NCBI GenBank assembly: GCA_017938285.1
Contig: JAGBBW010000148.1
Coordinates: 1-52,550, forward strand
Length of the DNA: 52,550 bases
Direction: 5' to 3'
Origin: Lachnospiraceae bacterium
GTDB taxonomy: Bacteria > Bacillota > Clostridia > Lachnospirales > Lachnospiraceae
The translations under genes were made by a program, and so were the position numbers. The notes beneath the pieces were generated by a model, which was not told where the DNA came from, did not search any database, and saw only the letters and a program-made list of their open reading frames with translations. Every line of letters begins with the position of its first letter. The stretch's first letter is position 1. Of the stretch, positions 26,325 through 40,877 are shown piece after piece.

Positions 26325-27560
26325 CTATTTTTTCTTCTTTGTCTTCTTTGTGGATTTTACCGGCACTGTTTCCCTGCTATCTGCAAGCAGAACGGTTCCA
26401 CCTCCCAACAGGCTTTTTCTTTGCTTCTCTTTTTTTTCAATCCTCGTATTTACATTTTCCCGGAGCAGTGCATACAAGGTGGACATCAAAGGAATAAACA
26501 CCAGCATTCCCACAATGCCAAACATACTGCCGCCCACCGAAACCGCCACCAGAACCCAGATAGCCGGAAGACCTACGGAATTTCCAACAACCCTTGGATA
26601 AATCAGATTTCCTTCCAGCTGCTGTAAAACAAGAAACATTACCACAAAAAACAACGCCTTAAAAGGATCTACCATTAAAATCAGAAATGCGCCTACCGCA
26701 CAGCCGATAAATGCACCGACAATCGGAATCAGTGCCGTAAATGCAATCAGAACACCAACCAGTACCGCATACGGCAGCTGGAAAATCGTCATACAGATTA
26801 CAAACAATGTACCTAAAATAACCGCCTCAAGACACTGACCCGAAATAAATTTTGCAAAATTGTTGTTGCATAGTGCCAGAACCTTTAAGACTTTTCCATA
26901 TCCTTTTTCCGGCAGGTATGCCTGAAACAGCTTTTTCACCTGTTTGCCCAGCTTTTCCTTGCCAGACAGAATATAAATCGCAAATACAAAGGATATCACG
27001 CCATCAAATATCATGCTGGCAAGATTTCCGGCAAAACCAACCGTTGAAGTCACAATGCTGCTGACACCATTCTTTAAGAAACCTGTCAGATAGCTGAATA
27101 CCGAATTCCAGTCAATGCTGATGCTCTCTAATGCTGCAATGGAATCCTGAAATTCCGGATACTCTGCCAGCAGCACCTCCAGATCAGCAACCAGATTTTC
27201 AAAAAAGGCCGGTACTACCTTGCCAAGCTCCATTAACGTTCTGGTCAACTGTGGCACTACCATCAGAATCACAAACACAATGACAGCAATCACAAAGAAA
27301 ATTGCCAGAACAATGCTCAAACCACGTTTTAAACCTGCTGTTTTTTCATTTTTCCAGCCAGCAAACAGTTTCCGCTCAATGAAACCAGTCGGAAGATTTA
27401 ACACAAAGGCCATTGCCGCACCCACCAGAAACGGAGTCAGCATGCCAAGAAACAGTTCAGCTACTCCAAGCACTTCTTTGCTGTACATTACTCCAAGACA
27501 AATCGTTCCTGCAAACAGAATCAATTTGCATATCATGCGAAACAGCTTTTTTTCATCCAT
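26325..27560 (-). CDS. AI-2E family transporter (PerM-like)
   Basis: 411 residues, with eight or so membrane segments in the typical arrangement: two near the N-terminus, a helical soluble stretch (about 125-165), then the conserved C-terminal block GQCLEAVILGTLF, PIVGAFIGCAVGAFLILM, LQQLEGNLIYPRVVGNSVGLP. The family exports diverse small molecules or ions; the substrate cannot be told. The start at 27560 follows GAAAGGGGAAAG; an ATG at 27578 is less well placed. A second paralogue is at 41223-42623. Confidence 0.88.
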   Translation of the reverse strand: MDEKKLFRMICKLILFAGTICLGVMYSKEVLGVAELFLGMLTPFLVGAAMAFVLNLPTGFIERKLFAGWKNEKTAGLKRGLSIVLAIFFVIAVIVFVILMVVPQLTRTLMELGKVVPAFFENLVADLEVLLAEYPEFQDSIAALESISIDWNSVFSYLTGFLKNGVSSIVTSTVGFAGNLASMIFDGVISFVFAIYILSGKEKLGKQVKKLFQAYLPEKGYGKVLKVLALCNNNFAKFISGQCLEAVILGTLFVICMTIFQLPYAVLVGVLIAFTALIPIVGAFIGCAVGAFLILMVDPFKALFFVVMFLVLQQLEGNLIYPRVVGNSVGLPAIWVLVAVSVGGSMFGIVGMLVFIPLMSTLYALLRENVNTRIEKKEKQRKSLLGGGTVLLADSRETVPVKSTKKTKKKK

Positions 27561-27672
27561 AAAACTTTCCCCTTTCACCGTTTCTTAATTCATTTTCTCT
27601 TCCTGATTTTTCCATAACAAATTTCCATTCCATAAAGCGCAAACCAAAAAGAGAAAGCATACATACACTAAA

Positions 27673-27701
27673 AAAGTATAGCATTATTCTTTCTCTTTTT
27701 C
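27673..27701 (-). promoter_or_regulatory. Promoter of the AI-2E transporter
   Basis: Minus strand: TTGAAA (27701-27696), 17-bp spacer, TATACT (27678-27673) with an extended -10 TGC. An inverted repeat, AAAAAGAGAAAG/CTTTCTCTTTTT (27647-27658 and 27688-27699), flanks the -10 and could be an operator. Confidence 0.65.
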
Positions 27702-27732
27702 AACGATTATCCCGTATTTTTCTATTAGTTTT

Positions 27733-27914
27733 GTAACTATTCAGCCTTATCTGCTATATATACGGACTGCAAGCTTGCTTGCAAGGCTGTATATATGGCA
27801 GATAAGGCGATTAGCCCCCCATCCAAATGAGTAAAACGGATAGCTGCAACGCAGCGACTGACAGCTTGCTGGCAGGTTTTACGAATGCGGATTTGGGGCG
27901 GGCTGAATAGTTAC
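27733..27914. mobile_element. MITE-like Y-shaped inverted-repeat element
   Basis: 182 bp with perfect 14-bp terminal inverted repeats: GTAACTATTCAGCC (27733-27746) and GGCTGAATAGTTAC (27901-27914). Between them are two large internal hairpins: TTATCTGC-ATATATAC paired with GTATATAT-GCAGATAA (27747-27806), and GCCCC-ATCC-GTAAAAC paired with GTTTTAC-GGAT-GGGGC (27813-27900). It has no coding potential. Its right end touches the stop codon of the LRAT-like gene at 27915. The form is that of a miniature inverted-repeat element or a dispersed structured RNA element. Confidence 0.6.
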
Positions 27915-28658
27915 TTAATTTTTGATTAAAAGTTCCAGCACTGTATTTACTGTTCTGTTTACCTGGTACGATTCCGCCACACCCGTCTTACACCACACAG
28001 CAAAATGTTCACAGTTGTTGGAAAGCAAATGATAGCTTTCTTCTCCAAGCCTTGATAATGCCCGTCTTACGGTTTCCTCTGGTGAATATATCCTGGCAGA
28101 TTTGTTTCCTGGTAGTATTGAATTTCTGTCATATCCTATATCATCCAGGTTAAAGGAAGTGCGTACCTGAATTTTTCGCGGCATTGTATAATTCTTATGG
28201 AAAAACAGGACAAAATAGTCGGTATCACCTTTTAAAAAGGACTCCAGGGAAGCTTTTCTTACCGAAACACAGCCACTGAAATCATTACCATCTCCAGCAT
28301 AATGAACCACCTGACCATCTCCAATATATACTGCGTAATGCTCATATATTTTCCATGCTTTTTTTCTGGCGACACCGATTACATCACCAGGCTCCAGAAA
28401 TTCCTCCCGCGTCAACCGCTTAAATTTTTCTTCCATTACTGTTGGACTGCCCCATGCCTTTCGTATATTATTTTCATCAACAACACGGTATAATCCGGTA
28501 ACATAATTGGCCTGTAGCTGCCACCCTGCCTTTTGCTTTATTACTTTCCAAAAGACAGGATCTGCATTTACCGCCAGCTCTACGTTTGGACAGTCCCCTA
28601 TCTCTGTATATAGCAGATTTTTTTCCGGCATTCTCATAACAGAAGACTTGTCCCACAT
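27915..28658 (-). CDS. LRAT/H-rev107-like (NlpC superfamily) protein
   Basis: 247 residues. The LRAT-type catalytic set is visible: His107 in YEHYAVYIGDG, His119 in QVVHYAG, and Cys216 in SNNCEHFAVWC. The PGDVIGVARK strand before it also fits. Eukaryotic members are lipid acyltransferases or phospholipases; bacterial ones are little studied. The first 80 residues are unassigned. There is no signal peptide, so a cytosolic or membrane-surface lipid target is inferred. It lies 10 bp after the YeeP/Era-like GTPase gene and shares its promoter. GGAGG precedes the ATG. Confidence 0.75.
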   Translation of the reverse strand: MWDKSSVMRMPEKNLLYTEIGDCPNVELAVNADPVFWKVIKQKAGWQLQANYVTGLYRVVDENNIRKAWGSPTVMEEKFKRLTREEFLEPGDVIGVARKKAWKIYEHYAVYIGDGQVVHYAGDGNDFSGCVSVRKASLESFLKGDTDYFVLFFHKNYTMPRKIQVRTSFNLDDIGYDRNSILPGNKSARIYSPEETVRRALSRLGEESYHLLSNNCEHFAVWCKTGVAESYQVNRTVNTVLELLIKN

Positions 28659-28668
28659 ACACTACCTC

Positions 28669-29802
28669 CTAAAAAATATCATCCAGAATGCTTCTTACAC
28701 AGCCAACAACTCCTCCCAGAAGCGCTCCTACAATTGCTCCAGGAATTCCAAGAATAGCACTTCCTATCTCGGCACCGGTATCTACACTATCCGAAATATA
28801 ATCGAAGGAATCATAAAAGCTTCCTTTAATCTCTTCGTTATAGTCCTCTTCGTCATCATTGTGCTCATAGTTTTCAGAATTCGTATTAATTCCTTCCATG
28901 ACAGCAACTCTCTTGTGTGCCGGAACAGCATTCATAATGTAATAAAGCAGTTTGGAAAGGTTATACGGATAAACCACATCCCCTGACTCTTCCTTATAAC
29001 CTGCACAGTAATACACCGGTTCGATATCCAGATTGGAATCTTCCTTAATTCTTGCTTTGATGGATGCCACCTTTTCATTCAGGAAATGGATAAGAGTCTC
29101 ATCCGGCTCGTTCTTTTCATAATCCCAATGTCTTCCTGTCTTCATAGCCACATCCGCCTGATTAAGCGCCACCAGGATTCTCTCATTCTCTCCATGCAGT
29201 TCCGGAATGATTACCTCATTCAGAATCTTATAGGAAGTACCCAGATCCCTGGAAGAACCATCCAGAATAACTAACACAAGGTCAATCAAGGCATTGCCAT
29301 CTGCATCCTTGTCTCTAAGCAGTTCCCGGATTCCTTCCTTATGATGTTCATCAATCTCCGTACCATCTCCAAGCCCCGGTGTGTCCCAAAGAACCAGATT
29401 GCCAATTTTGTATCTTTCAATGTCCTTTGTTTCCGGATCCGCCTTGCTGCCCACCCTGGCAACTTCAATAAATCCAGGCTTCTTCACTGTTTCTGAAGCA
29501 AGATCATCTTCGGATGGAACTTCCTCTTCTTCGCCACATGCAAACAGTGCATTAATGGTAGAACTCTTTCCACATCCGGTTGCACCAACAAGCATGATAT
29601 TCGTCTCCGTATTGCAGAAGGTTCTCAGCCGCTTTAATAACTCTTTCTTTTCTTCATCCGTACTCTTACTTTTTAAAATCTCATCTTCCAGAATATCCCG
29701 CAAGTCCTCCATGTTGTCACGAATGGTTCCTTCTCCAGCCTCTGCACCTTTCAAAATATCTTCTAAGCTGGAATTCAGGTTTTTAAATAAATCTGATAAC
29801 AT
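28669..29802 (-). CDS. YeeP/Era-like GTPase with C-terminal hydrophobic glycine-rich segment
   Basis: 377 residues. The G-domain motifs are G1 GATGCGKS (73-80), G3 DTPG (140-143) and G4 NQAD (214-217). The N-terminal 60 residues are helical. After the G domain there is an acidic linker (NDDEEDYNEE) and a hydrophobic Gly-zipper-like tail (about 340-372: IGSAILGIPGAIVGALLGG) that could enter membranes. It resembles the E. coli YeeP/YfjP-type GTPases found in islands. It is the first gene of unit 2, with its own operator-promoter; GGAGG precedes the ATG. Confidence 0.8.
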   Translation of the reverse strand: MLSDLFKNLNSSLEDILKGAEAGEGTIRDNMEDLRDILEDEILKSKSTDEEKKELLKRLRTFCNTETNIMLVGATGCGKSSTINALFACGEEEEVPSEDDLASETVKKPGFIEVARVGSKADPETKDIERYKIGNLVLWDTPGLGDGTEIDEHHKEGIRELLRDKDADGNALIDLVLVILDGSSRDLGTSYKILNEVIIPELHGENERILVALNQADVAMKTGRHWDYEKNEPDETLIHFLNEKVASIKARIKEDSNLDIEPVYYCAGYKEESGDVVYPYNLSKLLYYIMNAVPAHKRVAVMEGINTNSENYEHNDDEEDYNEEIKGSFYDSFDYISDSVDTGAEIGSAILGIPGAIVGALLGGVVGCVRSILDDIF

Positions 29803-29834
29803 TTTGTTTCCTCCATTTCATTTACTGTAACTAC

Positions 29835-29867
29835 ATCATACACTGCCAGCATGACACCCATTGTCAT
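29835..29867 (-). promoter_or_regulatory. Operator-promoter of unit 2 (GTPase-LRAT)
   Basis: The inverted repeat ATGACACCCATTGTCAT (29851-29867, plus strand) is followed, in the direction of transcription, by 10 bp and the -10 hexamer TATGAT (29840-29835). There is no good -35; the operator covers that position. The same arms and the same 10-bp distance occur before the dynamin operon at 39083-39115. Confidence 0.75.
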
Positions 29868-29879
29868 TCTAAAACAAAA

Positions 29880-29937
29880 AAAGAAAATCTATTAACACTG
29901 CCCCACTATTCCATGGCAGCGTTAATAGATTTTCTTT
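29880..29937 (-). terminator. Terminator of the dynamin-WYL operon
   Basis: A 17-bp perfect outer stem, AAAGAAAATCTATTAAC (29880-29896)/GTTAATAGATTTTCTTT (29921-29937), an inner stem CTGCC/GGCAG, and in minus-strand reading a long T-run after the stem. It separates the two units of the island. Confidence 0.85.
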
Positions 29938-29948
29938 ATCACAATAGT

Positions 29949-30026
29949 TTACTTGTCCTTTTTCTTATTTCCTAATCTCTTTTTAATAAGCTGTCCGAAA
30001 AAGAACATCCCGGACAAATTCTCCAT
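29949..30026 (-). CDS. Possible 25-residue basic peptide after the WYL gene
   Basis: Between the WYL stop and the terminator is a frame beginning MENLSGMFFFGQLIKKRLGN and ending KKKDK. A strong TAAGGAGG directly follows the WYL stop. It is too close to a TTG of this frame, and better spaced for an ATG at 30043 in another frame that gives a 23-residue peptide. The hydrophobic-then-basic composition could be a membrane-active peptide, or a remnant. Low confidence. Confidence 0.25.
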   Translation of the reverse strand: MENLSGMFFFGQLIKKRLGNKKKDK

Positions 30027-30058
30027 TCCGGTACCATTGTCATAGACTTCCAACCTCC

Positions 30059-31078
30059 TTATTGATACCTGTCCAGCATTTTCAAAAGAGTCTGCTTCAT
30101 TTCTTCCCGCAAACTCTCCGGACGTAATAGTTCCACCTTATCCCCCTGGGACAACAGCCACATCAGACATCCTTTCCCATACACCTCAGCCTCGATAGTA
30201 CACTCATGCTCATACTGCTCTACAATTCTTGCCGTCGGCAGACGGTCAAGAACCGGTTCCGGATTATCCCCATAATATTTCAGTTTGATGTTCAATAATC
30301 TGCCTGCATACATAAACTGAACCCGTTTGCGGAACTCCCCCTCTTCAAACCGGTTCGCATAGGAAACTTTGAACTTCTCCTCCAAATGCCTGTAGTTCTT
30401 AATCCGGTCAATTCTGAAAACAGCAGGATAATTGTACTTATGTACATACTTCCCATTTTCATCCTTTTCAACAATAAAAGCATTTAAGTAAAAATAATAC
30501 TCCGAAAAAAGAATGGCCAGCGGTTCTATCACTCTCTTTATGGATTCGCGGGGAGCATTCGCCCTGGCGTACCGTATGGACACCAGGTTATGTTCCTGAA
30601 TATCCGAGCCAATGCTCCACAGCTTGTCCTGAATATACTCTTTGTGATTCAGTTCCACATAATGATATTTTTCATTCGCAATGAGTTCACTCACAAGCTT
30701 CATGTTTTCCAGTGGAACGCACCCTTCTACCAGCTTGTCCAGAATGATTTTCAACTCCCGTCTGGTAAATGCCCTGCTCTCCAAAAGGATTTTGGAAACA
30801 GCCAGAATTTCACTGTTAGTCATCATGGAAGCTTCTGCTCCGGTCATGACAAAACCTTTTTTAGCCCGGTCATATATGATTTCCCGGCCATCGCCATTAC
30901 TTATACTTCGTTCATCCAAAAAAGCCCTGATATCGTCTATGTCCCGTTGAATCGATCTTTCATCGACATTGAACAGTTGTGCTTCCACAGATTTATTAAT
31001 TGTTTTTCCTTCACAGAACCGGACGTACATATCTATGGTCCTGTAATTTTTTGATTTTTTATCATTATTATCAGCCAT
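30059..31078 (-). CDS. WYL-domain transcriptional regulator
   Basis: 339 residues. The N-terminal winged helix (about 10-60) includes INKSVEAQLFNVDERSIQRD. The middle is a WYL domain (about 150-235), where the namesake motif reads FYL in EYYFYLNAF with the conserved FRIDRIKN. The C-terminal WCX part is about 245-335. WYL regulators such as BrxR and CapW repress phage-defence operons. As the last gene of unit 1 it is well placed to bind the shared 17-bp operators. The start at 31078 follows AAGGA; a longer version overlapping the upstream gene is less likely. Confidence 0.88.
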   Translation of the reverse strand: MADNNDKKSKNYRTIDMYVRFCEGKTINKSVEAQLFNVDERSIQRDIDDIRAFLDERSISNGDGREIIYDRAKKGFVMTGAEASMMTNSEILAVSKILLESRAFTRRELKIILDKLVEGCVPLENMKLVSELIANEKYHYVELNHKEYIQDKLWSIGSDIQEHNLVSIRYARANAPRESIKRVIEPLAILFSEYYFYLNAFIVEKDENGKYVHKYNYPAVFRIDRIKNYRHLEEKFKVSYANRFEEGEFRKRVQFMYAGRLLNIKLKYYGDNPEPVLDRLPTARIVEQYEHECTIEAEVYGKGCLMWLLSQGDKVELLRPESLREEMKQTLLKMLDRYQ

Positions 31079-31097
31079 AGGCATTCCTTCCCATACA

Positions 31098-33590
31098 TTA
31101 CTGTTCATAGCCAATTCGTTTCAGGGTATCATGATATAGTTTTTCATATCCATTTTTGTTTATATCGATACCATATTTTCTGCTCAAATCCACTACCATG
31201 GCAACATAGATATCCTGCGCCTTTTGCCAGTTCCCTGCCTGTATTTCTTTTACACTTGGGACAATATAATCGGTCCATAATTTGGCGTAAATCATCGAGG
31301 CCTCTTCCTCTAAATCGATTTTCTCAATTATTTTTGGCGCAATATTGTAATATTCCGCAACCAATGCCTGACCTTCCACTGAAGTCTTAATATGTTCATC
31401 CCTGAATCTGCGCAGGAAATTCAGTTCCTCACAATCTCTTCCTTTATTCAAGGCACAACCTGCTGCTGTTGTAATAAAGCACCAACCACCACTACCCACA
31501 GTACTTGAGGAAGAATATCCGCTGTAATCTTCCTCTTCATCATATTCTTCCTGTTTATTCTTTTCACGGGTTTGAATTTTCAACTTTACTCTTTTCTTGG
31601 CATTTGATACTGCTGGTATTTCGCTTCCGCTTACCTTTTCATAACATTTCAGTGCCTTGTCCAGGTCTTTTGTATTATATAGTCCATATTCTGCCAAATA
31701 GCCTTTGCAAAAATAAGCCGCAGCACTTCCTTTGTTATACAAAGCTGCTTGCACTTCAGAAAGATTTCTATTAAGACAAAAATTTATTACCGCAACACGT
31801 TCTTTATTCTTTGACACCTCTTTCTTTTGAGTTATTAATGACTCACATAAAGATAATACGGTTACAAATACTTCAACATAACTACGATTCTTCGGGGCAT
31901 TTTTTATTGGTTTTCCCTTATGGGAAAAATAATCCCAGATAACATTCTGATAAAGTATATCTGCAATTAGTTCTATTCCCCGGCTGTCACCAATTGCCGC
32001 TGCTATCTTTAAGTACGCTAATCTCTTATCGTGAATATCCGTAACGCCTTCTCCCTCATAGGCTTCCTGGATTCCTCTCTCCACACATGCGTCCGGATAC
32101 AGTACAGACGATAATAGATTCTTAATCCCAGTATCATCTCCACACTCTTCATAAAGTTTTCGACCTGCCATATCACATCCCATTTGTACAGCAGTTGTCA
32201 GCGCATTATTATCATTATGAATCAACGACCAGTAATACCATTCTTTTCCTGTCGTAAAATCACCTTTACTTAGACAATTCACTAAATGAATGATGTCATT
32301 ATCAAGCTCTGCACTTTCAGAAAAATGCAATAACATTTTTGCACATTCCCACGAATACACCTGAGAAACATCAAATGCAGGACACTCCGTTTTTTTTCCA
32401 CTCAATGATTTCGAATAAGACAAAAGTAATTCCTGATATTCATATCCACAATCAAATATTCTTTTTATACATTTCTTTTCTTCCTGTGAATCAATTCCGG
32501 CAACTGAAAAATAATAGGTGAATAAACAGTTTCTTAAGCAATTCGTCAAAATTCCATCCGTTTTCGAAACAATCCCCTGATAGCTGGCATCAATTGATTT
32601 GATTTCATGTTCCAGTCTCAGCAGAATACTGTCCACTGTTTCTTTTGCTTCCTGGTGCTTTCCAAGTTTTTCTTTTAAATCATCATGAAATTTTACCAGA
32701 ACATCGTTATTATCCCGTATTAAATCATTTGTCAGCTCACCCAGAATATCCGTCAGACTTTTTATATTTCTATTGTAATAATCTTCCAGAGGACATATCG
32801 CATATTTAAACAGGTCAAAAAACGAAATGACCGCCTTTTTATTTTTGTATAATCCACTATGCTCTATCGTAGAAATAATAATTGTATTACTATTCCCAAG
32901 AAGCTTCTTTTTCGTTATTTTTTTCGCACATTGTTCATTACACAGAAGATAATCCAGAGAATCAAACTCCCCTGGTTTTAAATCTTCCATGTCCTGTGGG
33001 GTTATTTTACCTATTTTTGTAGTGATTAACTCATCATACAATTCGGATAACTGTTTACTCCTGTTATCCAGTAAAAAACACTTATCTTTACTTTTCATAG
33101 GTACTCTGATTACAATAAATTTTATCAGTCTGTTAAGTGCAATATGCTTAGACATACTTTGCGAAAGTAAAAGATCCATCTCCTCTTTATTTATTGATAT
33201 TTTTGAAAAAGAAGTGCTTACTGCTTCCATTTCTGTCTTTTTTGCATTCATGATAAGTATGGGAATCTGCATATTATGTTTTCTAATCCATGAAAAATCC
33301 CCTGTCTTTATTTCAGCTTTCACATCATCTAACAATTGATTCGTATAATGACCATAAACTGCTATTACTTCGTTTCCACACAACTCCGGATACAAGGACA
33401 AAGCATTGATGTATTGTAACATCTGATCAAGACGCCTGGACAACTCTGGTACACTAGGGAATTGCACTTCTTCTAAACATGAATACAATTCTTCATCAAT
33501 AATATGATAAAGAGTATTCCTCCTGTTGGATTCTTTTATCTGTTCACGCATGACTTTCGCCAAAGCGGACAAAAAATTGTCTTCTATCAT
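31098..33590 (-). CDS. Large Sel1-like/CFI-box protein
   Basis: 830 residues. The N-terminal 420 residues are helical with no recognised domain (a possible coiled coil near 300-345). Residues about 430-680 contain Sel1/TPR-like repeats (AAAYFCKGYLAEYGLYNTKD, LDKALKCYEKV). After an acidic linker (EEYDEEEDYSGYSSSS), the end is a CFI-box domain: GGWCFITTAAGCALN (Cys704), ELNFLRRFRDEH, EYYNIAPKIIEKI. CFI-box C-terminal domains occur in many bacterial proteins of unknown role. It is the fourth gene of unit 1, 9 bp after the third GTPase, probably a scaffold or effector. Confidence 0.75.
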   Translation of the reverse strand: MIEDNFLSALAKVMREQIKESNRRNTLYHIIDEELYSCLEEVQFPSVPELSRRLDQMLQYINALSLYPELCGNEVIAVYGHYTNQLLDDVKAEIKTGDFSWIRKHNMQIPILIMNAKKTEMEAVSTSFSKISINKEEMDLLLSQSMSKHIALNRLIKFIVIRVPMKSKDKCFLLDNRSKQLSELYDELITTKIGKITPQDMEDLKPGEFDSLDYLLCNEQCAKKITKKKLLGNSNTIIISTIEHSGLYKNKKAVISFFDLFKYAICPLEDYYNRNIKSLTDILGELTNDLIRDNNDVLVKFHDDLKEKLGKHQEAKETVDSILLRLEHEIKSIDASYQGIVSKTDGILTNCLRNCLFTYYFSVAGIDSQEEKKCIKRIFDCGYEYQELLLSYSKSLSGKKTECPAFDVSQVYSWECAKMLLHFSESAELDNDIIHLVNCLSKGDFTTGKEWYYWSLIHNDNNALTTAVQMGCDMAGRKLYEECGDDTGIKNLLSSVLYPDACVERGIQEAYEGEGVTDIHDKRLAYLKIAAAIGDSRGIELIADILYQNVIWDYFSHKGKPIKNAPKNRSYVEVFVTVLSLCESLITQKKEVSKNKERVAVINFCLNRNLSEVQAALYNKGSAAAYFCKGYLAEYGLYNTKDLDKALKCYEKVSGSEIPAVSNAKKRVKLKIQTREKNKQEEYDEEEDYSGYSSSSTVGSGGWCFITTAAGCALNKGRDCEELNFLRRFRDEHIKTSVEGQALVAEYYNIAPKIIEKIDLEEEASMIYAKLWTDYIVPSVKEIQAGNWQKAQDIYVAMVVDLSRKYGIDINKNGYEKLYHDTLKRIGYEQ

Positions 33591-33599
33591 CGTTCACTC

Positions 33600-34847
33600 C
33601 TATTGCACATTTATTATCTGATGTAATTCCTCAACCAGTTTCTTAAACATATCAGAAACCCTGTCAATTTTCATAAGTCTGATATTCTCATACTTCCATA
33701 ATTTAGCAATCGACTCCACAGAAGTTATATTTTTCGTATCAGACAAAACCTCGAAATAACGTTTTTCACGTCTTTTGCTTAGTTTTTTTTCATTAACAAT
33801 CATCTTCTGAATATCAGCTGAAAGAATACTAATCTGTTCTATAATATCGTTCTCACTTACCTTATTTCTAACAACTTCTGAGAAAAAGGTCTCTATGTTG
33901 TTTTCCCCATATTCTTTCTTTTCAAAGGAAGAATATGCTGTAACTGCATAACAATCGATTCCTGCATTCCATATGGTTTCTTTTGCAAGTCTGACTACTT
34001 CCTGAACTGCCTCAGGCGTTCTCTTATCTGCCTTTGTAAACACCACAAGAATTTTATTGTTCAAACGAAGACCTCTGATAAAATCCAGGTCTTCTGAAGT
34101 AATTGTTCCCTTTGTAACATCCACTAACCAAATCAGATAGTCTGTAATCGCCAATTTGTCATGTGCTTTTTGTCTGTCACTCGTCCTCTCACGAACATTA
34201 TCATCCACATCAGCCTTGGAGTACCCTGGTGTATCCAGCAATACAATACTGTCATCGATTTCATATTTCTTTGTCCGAATAATTATGTTTTCAAGAACAG
34301 ACGAAAATCCTATGGAATACTTATTATAGAATTCATGCGACAATGCCCTCATAGCCTCTTTACTTAATTTTGCTGAATATCCAAACTTTGTATTAACCTC
34401 AATCTCATCAACATCTGCATGGACAATATACGACGAAACGGAGGTCGTAGGATTCTGATCCACGGGCAACGTATCCTCCATTCCGGTTACAGCATTGATA
34501 AACTGGGATTTACCGGAACTAAACCTGCCTCCCAGACTAACAACATGTTTCCCTCTCAGAATACCTGCCGTTCCCCATTCAGACAGTCTTTCCAAAAGCA
34601 CTTCAAACTTTCTTTGCTGTTCAAACATATCCGGAATATCACAATCATTCATCAGCTGAAACAGATCCTTTATTTTTTCTTTTACCTGAACTAACCCATT
34701 ACCTTTTGGATTGCTTTCGTTATGAACCAGCTGGGCAATCAGTTCTATTGCTTTTCCACTGTCAGAAATATAAATATTCTCATTATCTATTTGGATATCC
34801 TCTATAAGTTCATCTAAGCTTACCTCATCTTCTTCCTCAAACAGCAT
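33600..34847 (-). CDS. Dynamin-like GTPase 3 (short)
   Basis: 415 residues. G1 GRFSSGKS (107-114), the switch-I Thr in NPTTS (132-136), G3 DTPG (205-208), G4 TKAD (271-274). The C-terminal 100 residues are helical and basic, too short for a full dynamin stalk, and no membrane paddle is obvious. The start ATG at 34847 overlaps the end of GTPase 2 (11 bp) and follows AAGGAG. It may be a regulatory GTPase that joins the two longer dynamins, as paired bacterial dynamins often do. Confidence 0.85.
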   Translation of the reverse strand: MLFEEEDEVSLDELIEDIQIDNENIYISDSGKAIELIAQLVHNESNPKGNGLVQVKEKIKDLFQLMNDCDIPDMFEQQRKFEVLLERLSEWGTAGILRGKHVVSLGGRFSSGKSQFINAVTGMEDTLPVDQNPTTSVSSYIVHADVDEIEVNTKFGYSAKLSKEAMRALSHEFYNKYSIGFSSVLENIIIRTKKYEIDDSIVLLDTPGYSKADVDDNVRERTSDRQKAHDKLAITDYLIWLVDVTKGTITSEDLDFIRGLRLNNKILVVFTKADKRTPEAVQEVVRLAKETIWNAGIDCYAVTAYSSFEKKEYGENNIETFFSEVVRNKVSENDIIEQISILSADIQKMIVNEKKLSKRREKRYFEVLSDTKNITSVESIAKLWKYENIRLMKIDRVSDMFKKLVEELHQIINVQ

Positions 34848-37053
34848 TTGCCATCTCCTTAAATTTCCTAATAAGTTCACCCAACTGCGTTGCAAACGCA
34901 GCATTTAATTCCAGATATTTCTGTTGTTCCTCCATCTGGACTAATAGTTTCTGCATATCTCCTGAAAACTTTTTCTCCAATTCATCAGCAAAACCAACCG
35001 ATTCCTGCTGCATTATTTTACTGATTGTCTGACCATTTTCAGTCACCTTGGCATCGTATTCCGCGCGTATTTTCCCCAGCAATTCTGCCTGCATGCTGCT
35101 CAATTCATGTATCTCATTATTTTCAGCATACCCATTAATAAAACGTGAATTTAACAAGTCAATATATTTACCAGGATCAACATCTATTGCTGGCAAAGTC
35201 AATTTGACTAACAATTTCTCAACCGGCAGCAGAATGTCTTCTTTCTCATAATCGGTATCACCAGCCGCAAAAGCTTTCATTATGATCTCTTTGATTTTTC
35301 TTACAAACTGCTCCTGATTAAATAAATATGTAAATTCATCATTAATAATCTGCATACTTCTTGCATTATAATTTTGAAGATTAATTTTCACCTGGGCAGT
35401 TGAAGCTTTTTTAGTAACCACCGTGGTCTTTACCGTATCCTTTCGAAGTCCAAGGAAGCCTGCCTGTACGGTATATACATCCTCCGAAGTATCTGTAGTA
35501 GTTTTAAAAGAAGTATAATTTGCCATCTCCTGAGTCAAAATACTCTTTGTGGAAATCAGTTTTTTCTCACATTGTAACCCTGTGGTTTCAAATAATGTTG
35601 TCATCTGTTTTCTTGACAGAATCAACGCATCTCTGATATTCTGCGATTTATCTTCTACTTCTTCTTTTGACATATTCCTCAACTTAATATTATTTGTCTC
35701 AACATATGTCTTTATATCAAATAAAATTTTCGCAAAATTATTAGCTGCATTTTCAATCAGCCTGCTATCGTTTTGTGCAATAATATCCTCTTTTCTCTTC
35801 AATATTGCATTCAGTTTTTTCTTTACCTCGTTCAGTCCTGAAATCTGCGATAAATACTCATCCTTAAATCCGGAATACTCCTGGAGCTGCTCATAAACTT
35901 TTGCCTCCTCAGCAGTAAACTTCATGCCTTTTTTTATTTTCTTACTTAAAACATAACACATCGATGAAATATAAAGTCTGTCCGATTTTTCTATCTTTGC
36001 TGTCAATTCATTGCTTTGACCTGATTTCTTTACCATTTCCATATTCTTAAAAAACGATTTATCACAAGACTCTTTCGTTTTCTTTGCTTTTGTCCGGAAA
36101 TCCCCGCCCTTATCATCCGTTATTCCATCATCAAACCTGCTTCCTACTACCAGTACTTCATCCACACCCGCACTTGGCAGACTATTGACCATAAGGTTAA
36201 TCGTATCTGCAGGAAGAAATTCGCAAACACTGGACAGCAGAAAAACAACGTCACAATTATGCAGTTCCTCTTTTGTTTTCTGTCCTCTTGAAACTACCGG
36301 ATCACATAATCCTGGAGTATCAATAATTTCTATGCCCTCCAGACTCTCATTATCCACCATCAATTCAACGTTCTTTACTACAGCAGTATAGGTACCTTTC
36401 GCATCAATATAGTCATTCAATTTCTCAATAATATTTCCTTCCAGTTCTACTTCTTTCCCCAGGTACTCCAGAACACCATTTGCAGAAGCCATTCTTTTTA
36501 GTTCAACTGCAGATAAAATTCTGTCATCTTTAAATACACTTCTAAAACACCTGATTTCATATTTTTCTTTACTGAAAAATTCTCTTTCTTTTCCTCCGTT
36601 TTGCTTATCCTTCTTTTTTCCTTCCTCAAATTTCCTGCAATAATCAGCATACTCCTTTTCTAATTTAGTTTCGTAACTTGCAACATATTTTTCAATCTGT
36701 TCCCAGTCCTCCCTGCTAAAAAAATGTACAACCGCTTTTGGTGTTTCAGCATAGGATATCTTTGTTAAAGTTGCTGTAGACGGAGTAATTGCTTTTGGAA
36801 GATACTGCTCCCCATCAAACAGTAAAGCATTCAGGAAAGAGGATTTTCCTGCTTTCACTGCACCAATAATACCTATCACCAGCTTTCGTCCTTTGGCAGC
36901 CGCTTTCTTTAAACTGCTTTTTAGTTCTTTTCCGGTATTAATGAAATCATATAAATAACTTACATCGTACAGTTCTGCATTATCCTGATTTTCCAACAAT
37001 GCCTGTCCCTGAGATATTATTTCAAACAGTTCCTTCTTCTTTTCTTCAGTCAT
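34837..37053 (-). CDS. Dynamin-like GTPase 2 (large)
   Basis: 738 residues. G1 GAVKAGKS (64-71), switch-I TPSTATLT (90-97), G3 DTPG (245-248). G4 is unusual: SRFD (305-308) where [NT]KxD is expected, so guanine recognition may be weakened. An insertion of about 100 residues lies between G1 and G3. The C-terminal half is long and helical, fitting a bundle-signalling element and stalk. It overlaps GTPase 1 by 8 bp (ATGACTGA) and GTPase 3 by 11 bp, so expression of the three is coupled and probably stoichiometric. Confidence 0.85.
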   Translation of the reverse strand: MTEEKKKELFEIISQGQALLENQDNAELYDVSYLYDFINTGKELKSSLKKAAAKGRKLVIGIIGAVKAGKSSFLNALLFDGEQYLPKAITPSTATLTKISYAETPKAVVHFFSREDWEQIEKYVASYETKLEKEYADYCRKFEEGKKKDKQNGGKEREFFSKEKYEIRCFRSVFKDDRILSAVELKRMASANGVLEYLGKEVELEGNIIEKLNDYIDAKGTYTAVVKNVELMVDNESLEGIEIIDTPGLCDPVVSRGQKTKEELHNCDVVFLLSSVCEFLPADTINLMVNSLPSAGVDEVLVVGSRFDDGITDDKGGDFRTKAKKTKESCDKSFFKNMEMVKKSGQSNELTAKIEKSDRLYISSMCYVLSKKIKKGMKFTAEEAKVYEQLQEYSGFKDEYLSQISGLNEVKKKLNAILKRKEDIIAQNDSRLIENAANNFAKILFDIKTYVETNNIKLRNMSKEEVEDKSQNIRDALILSRKQMTTLFETTGLQCEKKLISTKSILTQEMANYTSFKTTTDTSEDVYTVQAGFLGLRKDTVKTTVVTKKASTAQVKINLQNYNARSMQIINDEFTYLFNQEQFVRKIKEIIMKAFAAGDTDYEKEDILLPVEKLLVKLTLPAIDVDPGKYIDLLNSRFINGYAENNEIHELSSMQAELLGKIRAEYDAKVTENGQTISKIMQQESVGFADELEKKFSGDMQKLLVQMEEQQKYLELNAAFATQLGELIRKFKEMANAV

Positions 37054-38767
37054 TATAAGCCTCCATCATGTTCTCGATTCTCTCAATATCACCAGCTATC
37101 ATTTTCTTAAATGCTTCGTACTCTTCTTCACTTCTGGCCTTCTTACTTTTTGCGTCATCAATCAATTGAGTAATCGAATCTATACTATTGCCCATTTCTG
37201 TTTCAAAAATAGTAATCATTGTTTCAATATTGTTCTCAAAGCTTTCTTTTATTGCAGGCCACAAAGAATTCGTTATCTGTGGAATAACCATTTCCTCATA
37301 CTGTTTTATCAGTTTTGAATGATTTGATTCACCAAACAAACACTTCAAACCTGCAAGGATTTCAGGCAGTAATACAATGATTGCTTCCACCCAGGTTACT
37401 GTTCCTCCAGTAACAATAGAAAGTGCCGCCGTAACTAATTTATAAATTGCATTACCGCCATTTTCAGATTTCTTCTTATCAGAATCCTGTTCCTCTAATG
37501 CTCCTTCTCTTCCTGCTCCATCAGTCAAAAATGCACCAGACTGAATCAGCCCCTGGACCTTTGCTGCTATATCCATAACTATTTCATCCAGTCCTCTTTC
37601 CTCTTCCTTTGAAACATTAGAAAAATCTGCCTGAAATGATTTTGATATCTCTGTTATCTTTTCAACAGAAAATTCTTTTACTGACTCAATCAATACCGGT
37701 CTTATCGTATCAAGAATAATTGCCTGTAATCCTTCTGTACTACGATTTTCAATCGCTCTTGCCGCCTCATCAGATCTTGTTCTCAGAGCACTCTTTACTT
37801 TCTCTATTACCACTTCAACATCATCATCCACATTTTCGCCCATTTCCCTGCGCTTTGTTTCAAATGACTTCTTTGCCAGTTCTTTCTTACGCTCCTGTAT
37901 TCTGATAATCTCGTCATATTCATAAGTATCCAGAAAGCGATTCTCTGAAACCACTCTCAGTATTTCCAAAATATTTTTAGCATTTGCAGATACAATGTCT
38001 TTTATCGCAGCGTCATACTCCTCCTGTGCATCAATTCCATTGATAATTCCTGATACCTTTTCAATAACCTTATCATCGTATTTAGAAATGCTATAAACCG
38101 GATAATCAAACCCATGCTGATCAAGAATAAATTCTATACTCTCTACTACTTCAGCAACTTCAGAATCTATGCGCTTATCGCATTTATTCACAAGAATCAC
38201 TATATTTTCACTATATTCTGAAATTTCATATAAGTAATTCAAAATCTGTGAATCTATTCCACCTTTTTGAACATCAACAACCATAATGAATCCAACACCA
38301 TATCCCAAATAGGATGCCAGCGCCCTGGTATGATCTTCTCTTGCGGTGTCAAACCCCGGAGTATCAACAATAACAAAATCTTCAATCTCCTTTAAGCCAT
38401 TTGCCTTAAGATAATATGAAATATGGTCATACTCCGAAGGAAGATATTTCCTGCCACTGACAAAAGCCTCCTTTTTCATCTTCTTATCAAAGGAAAAAGC
38501 TTTTTCTTCCTCACTATACCGTAATTCAGATGCAAGAGCTGTTGTCTCTCCAAGATCCACTTCTAAAAATTCCGGTCTTTCAATAAAGCTATTAATCAGC
38601 GAACTTTTGCCAGCATTAAAATGACCGACCACAAGAATTTTTAATTCATATTCATCCCTGGCCTGAAGTATCAGATTCACGGCATTCCTGATGCCCTCAT
38701 TTTCATAATGTCCATTTATTTCCTCTAATGTGTGAATTGCTTCATCAAAATTTGTTCTTAACAGCAT
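37046..38767 (-). CDS. Dynamin-like GTPase 1 with membrane-inserting segment
   Basis: 573 residues. G1 GHFNAGKS (48-55), switch-I ETTA (74-77), G3 DTPG (135-138), G4 NKCD (194-197). A helical stalk region (about 270-400) is followed by a hydrophobic stretch of about 40 residues (about 435-475: LVTAALSIVTGGTVTWVEAI and on) that looks like a membrane paddle or hairpin, then a last helical part (480-573). This is the layout of bacterial dynamin-like proteins such as DynA, IniA and LeoA, which remodel or protect membranes. First gene of unit 1; GGAGGAGG precedes the ATG. Confidence 0.87.
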   Translation of the reverse strand: MLLRTNFDEAIHTLEEINGHYENEGIRNAVNLILQARDEYELKILVVGHFNAGKSSLINSFIERPEFLEVDLGETTALASELRYSEEEKAFSFDKKMKKEAFVSGRKYLPSEYDHISYYLKANGLKEIEDFVIVDTPGFDTAREDHTRALASYLGYGVGFIMVVDVQKGGIDSQILNYLYEISEYSENIVILVNKCDKRIDSEVAEVVESIEFILDQHGFDYPVYSISKYDDKVIEKVSGIINGIDAQEEYDAAIKDIVSANAKNILEILRVVSENRFLDTYEYDEIIRIQERKKELAKKSFETKRREMGENVDDDVEVVIEKVKSALRTRSDEAARAIENRSTEGLQAIILDTIRPVLIESVKEFSVEKITEISKSFQADFSNVSKEEERGLDEIVMDIAAKVQGLIQSGAFLTDGAGREGALEEQDSDKKKSENGGNAIYKLVTAALSIVTGGTVTWVEAIIVLLPEILAGLKCLFGESNHSKLIKQYEEMVIPQITNSLWPAIKESFENNIETMITIFETEMGNSIDSITQLIDDAKSKKARSEEEYEAFKKMIAGDIERIENMMEAYND

Positions 38768-39076
38768 AAAAGCCTCCTCCTATTTTAACTCCATAAAAAA
38801 CAAAGTGGTCAGTACACCAGCCCTTTCTTATGAGGGACTTATTTCTCTTCTTTTCGCTTTGCGTCCTATAGTTTCATCTGCTCTGCCTCATATTCATTAC
38901 ATGGAATATTATAATCGATTATTCGAGCAAAATCAACATAGGGCGTCCTTTCATTTCAATATTTTGCACAAATCTCACTTGCTTTTAAACTTCTTATAGT
39001 GCATTTTGCACAATTTCTAATTTATCATCAACGAACCTTCCATTTTCTATCGTTGTTGTACATTTGTCATTTCCAT
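38768..39076 (-). promoter_or_regulatory. Long leader of the dynamin operon with repeats and a second promoter
   Basis: From the operator-linked start (near 39076) to the first ATG is about 300 nt with no real gene. It holds TTGTGCAAAAT twice in minus-strand reading (38971-38961 and 39013-39003), exactly 42 bp apart. A good second promoter follows: TTGATT (38936-38931), 17 bp, TATAAT (38913-38908). Downstream is the stretch ATAGGACGCAAAG (38869-38857), also seen at 13411-13423, and a weak stem TGGT-GTACTG-ACCA followed by CTTTGTTTTTT (about 38815-38793) that could be an attenuator. Confidence 0.5.
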
Positions 39077-39082
39077 AGTTCT

Positions 39083-39115
39083 ATTCTACCCCCTCTATAT
39101 GACACATTTTGTCAT
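39083..39115 (-). promoter_or_regulatory. Operator-promoter of unit 1 (dynamin operon)
   Basis: The inverted repeat ATGACACATTTTGTCAT (39099-39115) lies 10 bp before the -10 hexamer TAGAAT (39088-39083, minus strand). 14 of 17 bases, and both complete arms, equal the repeat at 29851-29867. A lone right half (TTGTCAT) occurs at 39064-39070. Confidence 0.75.
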
Positions 39116-39168
39116 TCAAAAATAATAATAAACTTCGACACATTTTTCTGTAACATTTTGCGAATATT

Positions 39169-39216
39169 AAAAAAATCCGTGTACCTGCATTATTACAAGT
39201 ACACGGATTCTTTTTT
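39169..39216. terminator. Bidirectional terminator after the RlmI-like gene
   Basis: AAAAAAATCCGTGTAC pairs with GTACACGGATTCTTTTTT around a loop of about 14 nt. It insulates the dynamin operon from the housekeeping genes upstream. Confidence 0.85.
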
Positions 39217-39238
39217 AAAATAATAATCAATCGCCTAT

Positions 39239-40447
39239 TTACGCATCCTCACAAACCTGGAAGATATAGAATTTTAAGTAATACGACTCCTCCGAAGACC
39301 ACAAAATCGGATGATCCGGTGCTTGGGTCCGGTATTCTACCTGTTTTAATCTTCTATGGACACTCTTTGCCGCCTGGCCGATGACTTCCGTAAACAGTTC
39401 CGGTGTCATAAAATGGGAACAGGAGCAGGTAGCAAAATAGCCGCCCGGTTTTACCAGCTTCATTCCTCTCATATTGATTTCCCGATAGCCTTTCATGGCA
39501 TTCTTTACAGAATTTCTGGACTTGGTGAACGCCGGTGGGTCCAGAATTACCACATCAAACAGCTCCCCCTTTGCTTCCAGCTCCGGCAAAAGTTCAAAAA
39601 CATCCGCACACTGGAAGGTTACCCTGTCTTCTAAACCGTTTAAACGGGCATTTTCTTCTGCCTGACGACAGCCAAGGTCGGAAGCGTCCACACCAATCAC
39701 TTCTTTTGCTCCGGCAATTCCGGCATTCAGTGCAAAGGAGCCGGTATGGGTAAAGCAGTCCAGTACCCTAGCGTCCTTACAAAGCTTCTGGATTGCCAGA
39801 CGGTTATATTTCTGGTCAAGGAAAAAGCCTGTTTTCTGGCCATCCTCCACATCTACGATATATTTTACGCCGTTCTCCACAATTTGTACCTTGGTATCGA
39901 AGGGTTCGGATAAAAATCCTTTTTCTCTCTTCATGCCCTCCTGTTCTCTTACCTTGGCATCACTGCGTTCATAAATGCCCCGGATAGTCACACCATCCTT
40001 TGCCATTTCCTCCTGCAAAAGTTCCAGAATCAGCATTTTATAGCGGTCAATGCCAAGAGCCAGAGACTGCACTACCAGCACATCTTCAAATTTATCAACC
40101 ACCATGCCCGGCACGTAGTCCGCTTCTCCAAAAATCACACGGCAGCTGCTGGTGTCTACGGTTTTCTTCCGGTAGTCCCAGGCATCCTGTACCCGTTTTC
40201 TAAAAAATTCACGGTCAATCACCGCATCTTTATTTCTGGTCAGAAGCCGGATGGTAATTTTGGAATTCCGGTTGATAAAACCAATTCCCATCGGATATCC
40301 ATTACAATCTTTTACAAGCACAAGTTCTCCGTTTTCCACCGTGCCGGTAATCGACTCGATTTCATTGTCATAAACCCAGAGCCCTCCGGCCCGCAGGGTT
40401 CTTCCTTCTCCCTTTTTTAATCCTACAATTGCTTTAATCTCGTCCAC
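39239..40447 (-). CDS. rlmI: Class I rRNA (cytosine-C5) methyltransferase, RlmI-like
   Basis: 402 residues. The N-terminal PUA-like domain (AGGLWVYDNEIESI, GYPMGIGFINRNSKITIRLL) is followed by an EEHEE-type middle domain and a Rossmann methyltransferase with motif I VLDCFTHTGSFALNAG, the acidic loop VIGVDAS, and the catalytic-loop motif ILDPPAF. This is the YccW/RlmI pattern; the enzyme methylates a cytosine of 23S rRNA. The start is a GTG at 40447 after AAAGGGG, 13 bp after the gtrA stop; the two form one unit. Confidence 0.88.
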   Translation of the reverse strand: MDEIKAIVGLKKGEGRTLRAGGLWVYDNEIESITGTVENGELVLVKDCNGYPMGIGFINRNSKITIRLLTRNKDAVIDREFFRKRVQDAWDYRKKTVDTSSCRVIFGEADYVPGMVVDKFEDVLVVQSLALGIDRYKMLILELLQEEMAKDGVTIRGIYERSDAKVREQEGMKREKGFLSEPFDTKVQIVENGVKYIVDVEDGQKTGFFLDQKYNRLAIQKLCKDARVLDCFTHTGSFALNAGIAGAKEVIGVDASDLGCRQAEENARLNGLEDRVTFQCADVFELLPELEAKGELFDVVILDPPAFTKSRNSVKNAMKGYREINMRGMKLVKPGGYFATCSCSHFMTPELFTEVIGQAAKSVHRRLKQVEYRTQAPDHPILWSSEESYYLKFYIFQVCEDA

Positions 40448-40460
40448 GTATTTATCCCCT

Positions 40461-40877
40461 TTATTTTTTCTTTGTAAAAACAAACAACTTGCTGAAAATA
40501 TAATTCAGAATGATGACAAGTACTGCAACAACTGCCTTCATTATCATATTCGGGCCATGCAGCAGGTCAACCAACACAAACATTCCAAGTTCTTCCACGC
40601 CAAACGTCACCAGTCTGGCACTGAAAAACTTTACTATCTTTTTGGATTCTCCCGCAGCATCCTCCTGCTTGTCCTGAAATACCCAGCGGGCATTCACCAC
40701 ATAGGCAAAGGACACCGCAATCACCCACGCAATGGCATTTGCCACCAGATTTGGTATGCCAATGACATTACAGAACAAATGGTATGCTATAAAATTAACT
40801 ACCGTTGTACTGACACCGGCAATCCCATACGTGATGGTTTCCCTGTTCACTAATAATTTCCAAAGTTTTTTAATCAC
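40461..40877 (-). CDS. GtrA family membrane protein
   Basis: 138 residues and four membrane segments with the typical GtrA features: YGIAGVSTTVVNFIAYHLF, ANAIAWVIAVSFAYVVNARWVF, and ILNYIFSKLFVF at the end. The family flips lipid-linked sugars or assists cell-wall polysaccharide glycosylation. A clear promoter lies upstream at 41070-41098. Confidence 0.9.
   Translation of the reverse strand: MIKKLWKLLVNRETITYGIAGVSTTVVNFIAYHLFCNVIGIPNLVANAIAWVIAVSFAYVVNARWVFQDKQEDAAGESKKIVKFFSARLVTFGVEELGMFVLVDLLHGPNMIMKAVVAVLVIILNYIFSKLFVFTKKK

Follow-up and report, generated by a model that had tools for sequence, protein, structure and literature searches.

The subject of this analysis is a gene island on the minus strand of a 52,550-nucleotide contig from a Lachnospiraceae bacterium (GenBank assembly GCA_017938285.1, contig JAGBBW010000148.1); we refer to this whole stretch as the window. 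The genome is a 3.2-Mb draft in 154 contigs, 86.7% complete, and the stretch under study is its contig 140. Between positions 27915 and 38767 lie seven intact open reading frames (ORFs), named P1 to P7 in order of transcription, which form two co-directional units: P1-P5 (unit 1) and P6-P7 (unit 2). P1 overlaps P2, P2 overlaps P3, and P3, P4 and P5 almost abut one another. Three of the genes encode dynamin-like GTPases, and both units are preceded by the same palindrome at the same distance from a -10-like box. A preliminary description, made from the sequence alone, had placed seven genes here and proposed that they form one undescribed, membrane-acting defence system. All seven ORFs are indeed open on the minus strand. 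The genes and promoter elements are as follows.

37046..38767, minus strand: P1, dynamin-like GTPase of 573 amino acids (aa); Dynamin_N 57.8 bits, cut-off 27
34837..37053, minus strand: P2, dynamin-like GTPase of 738 aa; Dynamin_N 59.3 bits, cut-off 27
33600..34847, minus strand: P3, short dynamin-like GTPase of 415 aa from the ATG at 34847; Dynamin_N 47.6 bits, cut-off 27
31098..33590, minus strand: P4, 830 aa, Sel1 repeats and a C-terminal CFI-box; NF041770 53.5 bits, cut-off 40
30059..31078, minus strand: P5, WYL/WCX regulator of 339 aa from the ATG at 31078 (the ORF opens at 31114); WYL 28.9 and WCX 28.4 bits, both above cut-off
28669..29802, minus strand: P6, small GTPase of 377 aa; MMR_HSR1 36.1 and IIGP 26.4 bits, both above cut-off
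27915..28658, minus strand: P7, LRAT/PLAAT-like protein of 247 aa; LRAT 87.7 bits, cut-off 24.3, 9e-25
39099..39115, minus strand: operator of unit 1, ATGACA-N5-TGTCAT, from pattern and repeat finding
39083..39088, minus strand: -10-like box TAGAAT, 10 nt past the unit 1 operator, from promoter inspection
29851..29867, minus strand: operator of unit 2, ATGACA-N5-TGTCAT, from pattern and repeat finding
29835..29840, minus strand: -10-like box TATGAT, 10 nt past the unit 2 operator, from promoter inspection

The Dynamin_N scores of P1, P2 and P3 confirm the three tandem, overlapping dynamin-like genes of the preliminary description, and the GTP-binding motifs of P1-P3 and P6 are present in the translations. 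The P3 ORF as a whole spans 434 aa, opening at 34904. The C-terminus of P1 carries, by eye, a hydrophobic stretch resembling a paddle. Against structures in the Protein Data Bank (PDB), the P2 family profile matched 5owv at 4e-27 and the bacterial dynamin 2j68 (BDLP1) at 1e-17; 5owv and 5oxf are presumably the Campylobacter jejuni dynamin pair DLP1/DLP2. The P4 family profile matched Sel1-repeat structures near profile positions 606-690. P6, whose GTPase domain is of the 50S type, scored below the dynamin model (Dynamin_N 17.7 bits against a cut-off of 27), and its C-terminus is glycine-zipper-like, although under the Pfam cut-off (Gly-zipper_Omp, 13.7 bits). In P7, the regions YEHYAVYIG, VVHY and NNCEHF correspond to the His, His and Cys (NCEHF) positions that are catalytic in LRAT/PLAAT proteins, and the His/His/NCEHF regions align with 4fa0, a group XVI phospholipase A1/A2, at 3e-9. 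Because of the end of P6 and this alignment of P7, unit 2 may act on lipids.

A single-sequence P2 scan of genome contigs returned nothing. We scanned the genomes of 84,980 species with an alignment and kept the best 80 of at least 213 relatives; together with loci fetched earlier and plasmids, these gave 96 scored loci, 90 of them distinct. P1, P2 and P3 occurred together in 63 of the 96 (60 distinct). Among the matches listed, these trio loci came from Lachnospiraceae, Veillonella, lactobacilli, Paenibacillus, Synergistales, Gastranaerophilales and Gammaproteobacteria, and also from Campylobacterales, Spirochaetes, Bacteroidales, Flavobacterium, Fusobacteriaceae, Fibrobacteraceae and others. 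Three main layouts were found: P1-P2-P3-P4, P1-P2-P3, and P1-P3-x-x-P2. After the last of these there is often a protein of about 1030 aa (L030:1946-5053, L233:9996-13082); the one tested, in L030, is HerA-like (PF01935). Pairwise distances of P1, P2 and P3 correlate with r between 0.85 and 0.92 over 57 loci including the window, a measure that includes shared species history (permutation maximum 0.17); those of P3 co-vary with P1 and P2 at r 0.85 and 0.92. These correlated distances fit a P1-P2-P3 unit that is inherited together.

The remaining genes are linked to this core more loosely. Among the 63 trio loci, P4 was present in 14 and a WYL gene lay within 3 kb in 20. Elsewhere, P6 lay near dynamins in three loci (L030, L060, L138) and an LRAT protein in two (L106, L135). 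P7 relatives in four other family genomes had none of this dynamin set within the up to 20 kb examined, and in one of them (L177) a P5 relative lies about 10 kb from the P7 relative. We therefore reject the seven genes as one conserved composition: the linkage of the dynamins that had been foreseen held up, while the idea of a seven-gene system did not. In relatives, P4 comes after P3. An order-wide search for P4 found matches in 28 of 392 genomes including that of the window, mostly to the CFI-box end alone; at seven places examined, full-length P4 was present in two (G592, which is probably the contig already counted as L063, and G330), each time after P1-P3. The G330 locus (L207:1136-4661) has four tandem, similar-looking genes of 263-285 aa ahead of P1-P2-P3-P4. 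Two genomes (L208:9298-13235, L209:644-4512) encode an 800-aa P4-like protein followed by two genes that by eye are VWA-like and PP2C phosphatase-like. In L106:13835-18248 (Paludibacteraceae) and L135:9597-12980 (Treponema), the genes after the three-dynamin operons encode zinc-ribbon proteins and the LRAT protein.

Within the family, P2 relatives were present in 13 of 250 genomes, the window genome counted. The closest of these relatives, in G162, has 34% identity and P1-P2-P3-P4 in the same order; in G028 the order is P6-P5-P1-P3-x-x-x-P2. These two and the window are the three family loci inspected that hold P1, P2 and P3 together. Nine family genomes carry a distant P1-P2 pair, mostly amid housekeeping-type genes, and G065 is arranged differently. 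Such a distant pair stands among housekeeping-type genes in L025, L027, L028 and L031-L034, which come from several genera of the family and in some cases have similar neighbours, so that it may be a core pair in these genera.

The second feature that ties the locus together is its promoter design. A repeat finder independently returned both 30-bp operator copies of the window. The exact palindrome ATGACA-N5-TGTCAT occurs eight times in 1,499,298 bases from 90 related loci, two of the copies coming from G112 and two from L060, and all eight lie within 500 bp upstream of a unit of the system, although such upstream regions make up 4.9% of the sequence (P=3.6e-11; the set did not include the window, and 14 loci, duplicates of other loci and the P1-P2 pairs, had been removed in advance). 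With permuted half-sites, 60 palindromes gave a mean of 0.15 copies and a maximum of 2. The carriers of the operator include a Veillonella, a Shewanella and Lachnospiraceae. This per-site test replaced a gene-by-gene count, in which 6 of 152 system genes and 10 of 970 other genes had a hit (P=0.014), because 6 of those 10 control hits went back to the very same physical sites, scored again for small or divergent ORFs next to the system. Looser forms of the operator were also tried and not retained: allowing one mismatch gave 3 matches in the window against 1.9 expected, and the loose form gave 6 sites per strand genome-wide against 5 for a reversed control, neither being significant.

The distance between the palindrome and the -10 box is fixed. 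TANNNT stands exactly 10 nt after the site in 11 of 13 sites, and in 8 of the 9 exact sites that lie outside the window (P=1e-11). In the would-be -35 slot, only 0-3 of 6 positions agree with TTGACA. The full pattern, operator-N10-TANNNT, occurs twice in the window genome, both times inside the island. Across 397 family genomes it was found at 20 sites in 15 genomes, and the reversed pattern at least twice among the matches listed. At 11 of the 18 outside sites, a WYL gene, P6 or a related GTPase gene lies no more than about 1.6 kb away (L214, L215, L218, L219, L220, L223, L224, L226, L227, L229, L231); the weaker cases are L223, where P6 is truncated, L227, with a WYL protein of another subfamily, L229, with a weak GTPase match, and L224, whose WYL gene was seen in the longer locus L180. 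One site (L226/L233) heads a complete operon that runs from the site through WYL, P1, P3, two more genes and P2 to a 1028-aa protein. Elsewhere, the operator lies ahead of an RtcB-like gene and then an AAA ATPase gene (L221/L240, L240:2147-6122), and genes of this kind stand beside a P5 relative in L179:9059-14185, all by eye. A 455-aa gene of no recognised kind in L180:8544-10029 has the exact promoter pattern ahead of it and stands next to a P5 relative.

We compared this design with what is described for known WYL regulators. P5, already taken for a WYL regulator in the preliminary description, has WYL and WCX domains above cut-off behind an N-terminal region that by eye aligns as helix-turn-helix. 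DriD is described as binding the consensus ATACGAC-N7-GTCGTAT over a poor -35, at a constant distance to the -10 (PMC12340889, preprint), and PafBC as using tTGTCRgtg-8 nt-TannnT (PMC5656591) and being activated by single-stranded DNA (ssDNA; PMC11804915). SiwR, another WYL activator, has a palindrome upstream of the -10 (PMC10693628). The island site has the features of the DriD/PafBC type: a GAC-N7-GTC palindrome, a poor -35 and fixed spacing to the -10. Because this design matches that of the ssDNA-activated WYL activators DriD and PafBC, activation by P5 is the better reading.

The same site could instead be that of a repressor like BrxR or CapW, the WYL proteins named in the preliminary description as controlling defence operons. 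The system would then be the same, with P5 covering the -35 region and released on infection. For the repressor BrxR, too, a pair of boxes with 5-bp spacers is described, and the second of these precedes brxA (PMC9122601); P5 has WYL and WCX domains behind an N-terminus that by eye is helix-turn-helix-like; and repression could also come from a site that covers the -35. However, the sites of the repressor CapW overlap the -10 (PMC9122588), while the palindrome here ends 10 nt upstream of it; the -35 slot is degenerate, as in DriD promoters; and in the P5 profile search, where all matches are weak, PafBC comes ahead of CapW and BrxR. We therefore consider a repressor unlikely, and the earlier analogy probably wrong in detail, since the site stands where the -35 would be and keeps a set distance to the -10, as DriD and PafBC sites do. 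P5-type WYL genes also head another GTPase operon (proteins of about 430-500 aa, 780-850 aa and later more than 1000 aa; L236:3193-14979, L185:2114-10984), which in L185 has neighbours that by eye are DndC-like and cysteine desulfurase-like.

The island as a block is accessory. Alignment to the congener G251 leaves 9 bp between the flank on the methyltransferase side and that on the transporter side, against 11,671 bp in the window. The congener G250 likewise lacks the island, and there another gene precedes the transporter gene. A search of three further genomes of the genus, 97, 86 and 78% complete, found no P2. The block is therefore an insertion, or was lost in a relative, which bears out its presumed accessory status. 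The extent of the island, its neighbours and its remaining elements are listed below.

27568..39238, no strand: island extent against congener G251, from flank alignment
39239-40483: methyltransferase gene, upstream neighbour of unit 1, from ORF and Pfam scan
26325-27578: AI-2E-family transporter gene, neighbour on the P7 side, from ORF and Pfam scan
29880..29937, minus strand: hairpin with T-run between P5 and P6; arms of 23 nt, 96% complementary, T-run read in the sequence
39169..39214, no strand: hairpin in the gap that separates unit 1 from the methyltransferase gene upstream; arms of 19 nt, 89% complementary
27740..27925, no strand: hairpin element resembling a miniature inverted-repeat transposable element (MITE), just beyond P7, recurring within its own genome

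The hairpin between P5 and P6 is probably the terminator of unit 1. The MITE-like element has 24 matches in the genome, counting itself and its own internal palindrome, and two other copies span 175 of its 186 bases at 96 and 93% identity. The picture of two adjacent units with a terminator and a MITE-like flank thus stands.

Whether unit 1 and unit 2 belong to one system is less clear-cut, since they could be two independent systems, a three-dynamin system P1-P4 and a GTPase/lipid module P6-P7, that lie side by side because P5 serves both. Several observations speak for this. P5 is 80% identical to the regulator in L060 and 75% identical to that in G112, whereas P1-P3 are 27-32% identical to their L060 partners; the regulator and the dynamins therefore differ in history, and at the level of sequence identity this favours a shuffled cassette under a shared switch. 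Base composition differs in the same place: P1-P4 have 35.5-36.6% GC, and P5, P6 and P7 have 42, 42 and 41%, near the mean of 44% (sd 2.7) of the other window ORFs (30 of at least 150 aa, spurious ones possibly among them), so that the AT-richness described for the whole island applies to P1-P4 alone. P6 is carried by six other family genomes, in part away from dynamins, with a WYL gene or the shared site adjoining it in three (G028, G098, G112). The promoter pattern also precedes other operons, such as the RtcB-like/AAA set. Against two separate systems, P6, WYL and dynamin genes stand together in L030, L060, L138 and the window, and LRAT proteins follow the trios in L106 and L135. We judge the two-system explanation to have a little less than an even chance.

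The core also occurs on mobile DNA. Three dynamin genes are present on an E. albertii plasmid and on several E. coli plasmids (two of them typed IncF), and in the E. coli plasmid records the CFI-box gene comes after the dynamins (P1-P4). At the level of near-identity, P3-P4 were found in 5 of 5426 complete E. coli genomes, in all five on plasmids. One E. coli plasmid copy has P2 split beside an IS3-family element (L048:8818-11894). On a P. aeruginosa plasmid, a WYL gene and three dynamin genes adjoin genes annotated EH-signature and DEAD/DEAH helicase. A PADLOC scan of neighbours, made on 113 of 273 neighbour proteins at E<=1e-20, tallied one ZorC and one ZorD member; these must be the P. aeruginosa plasmid neighbours, although the tally names no members. 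Other neighbours were MkoA-like (L109), a type I methyltransferase (L111) and HEC-06-like (L128). The scan assigned 79 families among the 113 proteins, and several of the first 25 inspected are general enzymes. This defence-gene neighbourhood is suggestive only: the proximity to defence genes that had been expected appears in some loci, as Zorya-type, MkoA-like and HEC-06-like neighbours, but clear defence genes are few.

A role other than phage defence, as a membrane-repair module for DNA damage or envelope stress, or as a vesicle or plasmid-maintenance module, would suit some of these data. PafBC and DriD are damage-response regulators (PMC11804915, PMC12340889), bacterial dynamin operons also act in vesicle release, LeoABC being an example (PMC4159319), and the plasmid copies lie near partition genes. 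The sporadic spread of P2 (13 of 250 family genomes, nine of them with the distant P1-P2 pair, and none of three congeners) and the Zorya-type and Mokosh-like neighbours argue the other way, and we regard a non-defence role as unlikely.

We prefer to read the island as an inducible system that acts on membranes, was acquired horizontally and is most likely directed against phage, and we give this reading about an even chance of being correct. We infer the role against phage from genomic context and from DynA. In such a system, P5 would sense ssDNA or a related nucleic acid from damage or phage replication. A P5 dimer would bind ATGACA-N5-TGTCAT in place of the missing -35 box and activate both units; because P5 is the last gene of unit 1, this would create a positive loop. 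P1 and P2 would form a heteromeric dynamin pair, the hydrophobic stretch of P1 docking on the membrane for GTP-driven bridging or remodelling. Membrane docking and bridging by P1-P2 is the likeliest core action because the P2 profile matches 5owv and BDLP1. P3 would be the third GTPase of the P1-P2 complex and P4 a Sel1/CFI-box scaffold. P6, with its possible membrane tail, and P7, as a PLAAT-like lipid enzyme, would be induced along with them as an accessory arm and might change the lipids of that membrane. The result could be membrane sealing with delayed lysis, as for DynA, or membrane damage with abortive infection.

Several results weigh against this anti-phage reading. In addition to the vesicle role of LeoABC, few of the 113 scanned neighbours are clear defence genes, and 56 control proteins also gave eight PADLOC families (matches included SspH, mad8, mad3, dGTPase, MzaA and RT models). 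No P2 relative was found in phage records, or in viral contigs searched with single-sequence patterns. As for regulation, a WYL gene is absent from the nearest 3 kb in 43 of the 63 trio loci (some contigs end early), 7 of the 18 outside promoter sites lack a WYL, P6 or GTPase neighbour (L213, L216, L217, L221, L225, L228, L232), exact operators were present in few of the 90 loci tested, and neither the window nor the genome is enriched in the loose 10-base form of the operator. The matches of P5 to solved structures are weak (PafBC E=0.0011, PafC 0.0018, CapW 0.025, BrxR 0.094), and DriD was not listed among them.

A broader proposal, which we offer tentatively and with somewhat more doubt than belief, is that the island belongs to a widespread, SOS-independent immune regulon beyond mycobacteria and Caulobacter. 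In this regulon, ssDNA-activated P5-type WYL proteins would turn on operons of several dynamins or of other GTPases from ATGACA-N5-TGTCAT-N10-TANNNT promoters, and the products would remodel the membrane in phage infection; the three-dynamin/CFI-box operon would be one of the main effectors and an undescribed defence class. If our interpretation is right, there would be a large, cross-phylum class of membrane-acting defence loci, not named by PADLOC here, with a readable on-switch; the promoter pattern would find new members without protein similarity, and activators of the DNA-damage type would be linked to immunity. The trigger of bacterial dynamins would become directly testable, and through its E. 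coli plasmid copies the core is open to tests in a laboratory strain.

Turning to known systems, PADLOC, NCBIfam and Pfam named domains, with no system matching the set, and no description of the three-dynamin/CFI-box/WYL set was found in the open-access literature searched, in agreement with the preliminary description, whose author knew of no system with this exact composition. Bacterial dynamin defence is already known as a kind, and the regulatory side may be more novel than the parts. Eleos and the PADLOC system "Dynamins", which often coincide and are catalogued as defence (PMC11811056), resemble the island in their tandem bacterial dynamins, and P1- and P2-type proteins match LeoA and LeoBC weakly and partially. 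P1 scored 34.5 bits to LeoA over only 66 of 559 positions and 27 bits to LeoBC over positions 311-586 of 601; P2 and P3 had no LeoA or LeoBC match; P6 reached 38.5 and 39.3 bits to LeoA and LeoBC, confined to the GTPase part, and was alone in reaching NF041922, at 12.1 bits against a cut-off of 325. The E. coli and P. aeruginosa relatives gave 16-50 bits against the LeoA and LeoBC models. Unlike these systems, the island combines three GTPases with a CFI-box protein and a WYL regulator. Bacillus subtilis DynA, which delays phage lysis (PMC8844932), is also a bacterial dynamin; however, it is a single protein of two fused dynamins, and its model NF052648 scored only 19.7 bits with P1 and 27 bits with P3, against a cut-off of 1600. 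The 5owv/5oxf pair and BDLP1 (2j68) are both matched in sequence by the P2 profile and share the tandem-pair logic, but are not known to include a third GTPase, a CFI-box protein or a WYL partner. P7 aligns with group XVI phospholipase A/PLAAT proteins in the His, His and NCEHF regions, but has about 85 extra N-terminal residues. Like BrxR and CapW, P5 is a WYL regulator in a defence-like island, with two boxes and 5-bp spacers as for BrxR; unlike those repressors, and unlike CapW with its site over the -10, its site lies in the -35 region at fixed spacing. The half-site spacing of the island operator is that of DriD, and the TGTCA-N11-TANNNT spacing of the island promoter is that of PafBC. 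Whereas DriD and PafBC regulate DNA-damage genes in Caulobacter and mycobacteria, the putative P5 site fronts GTPase operons, in Bacillota and others.

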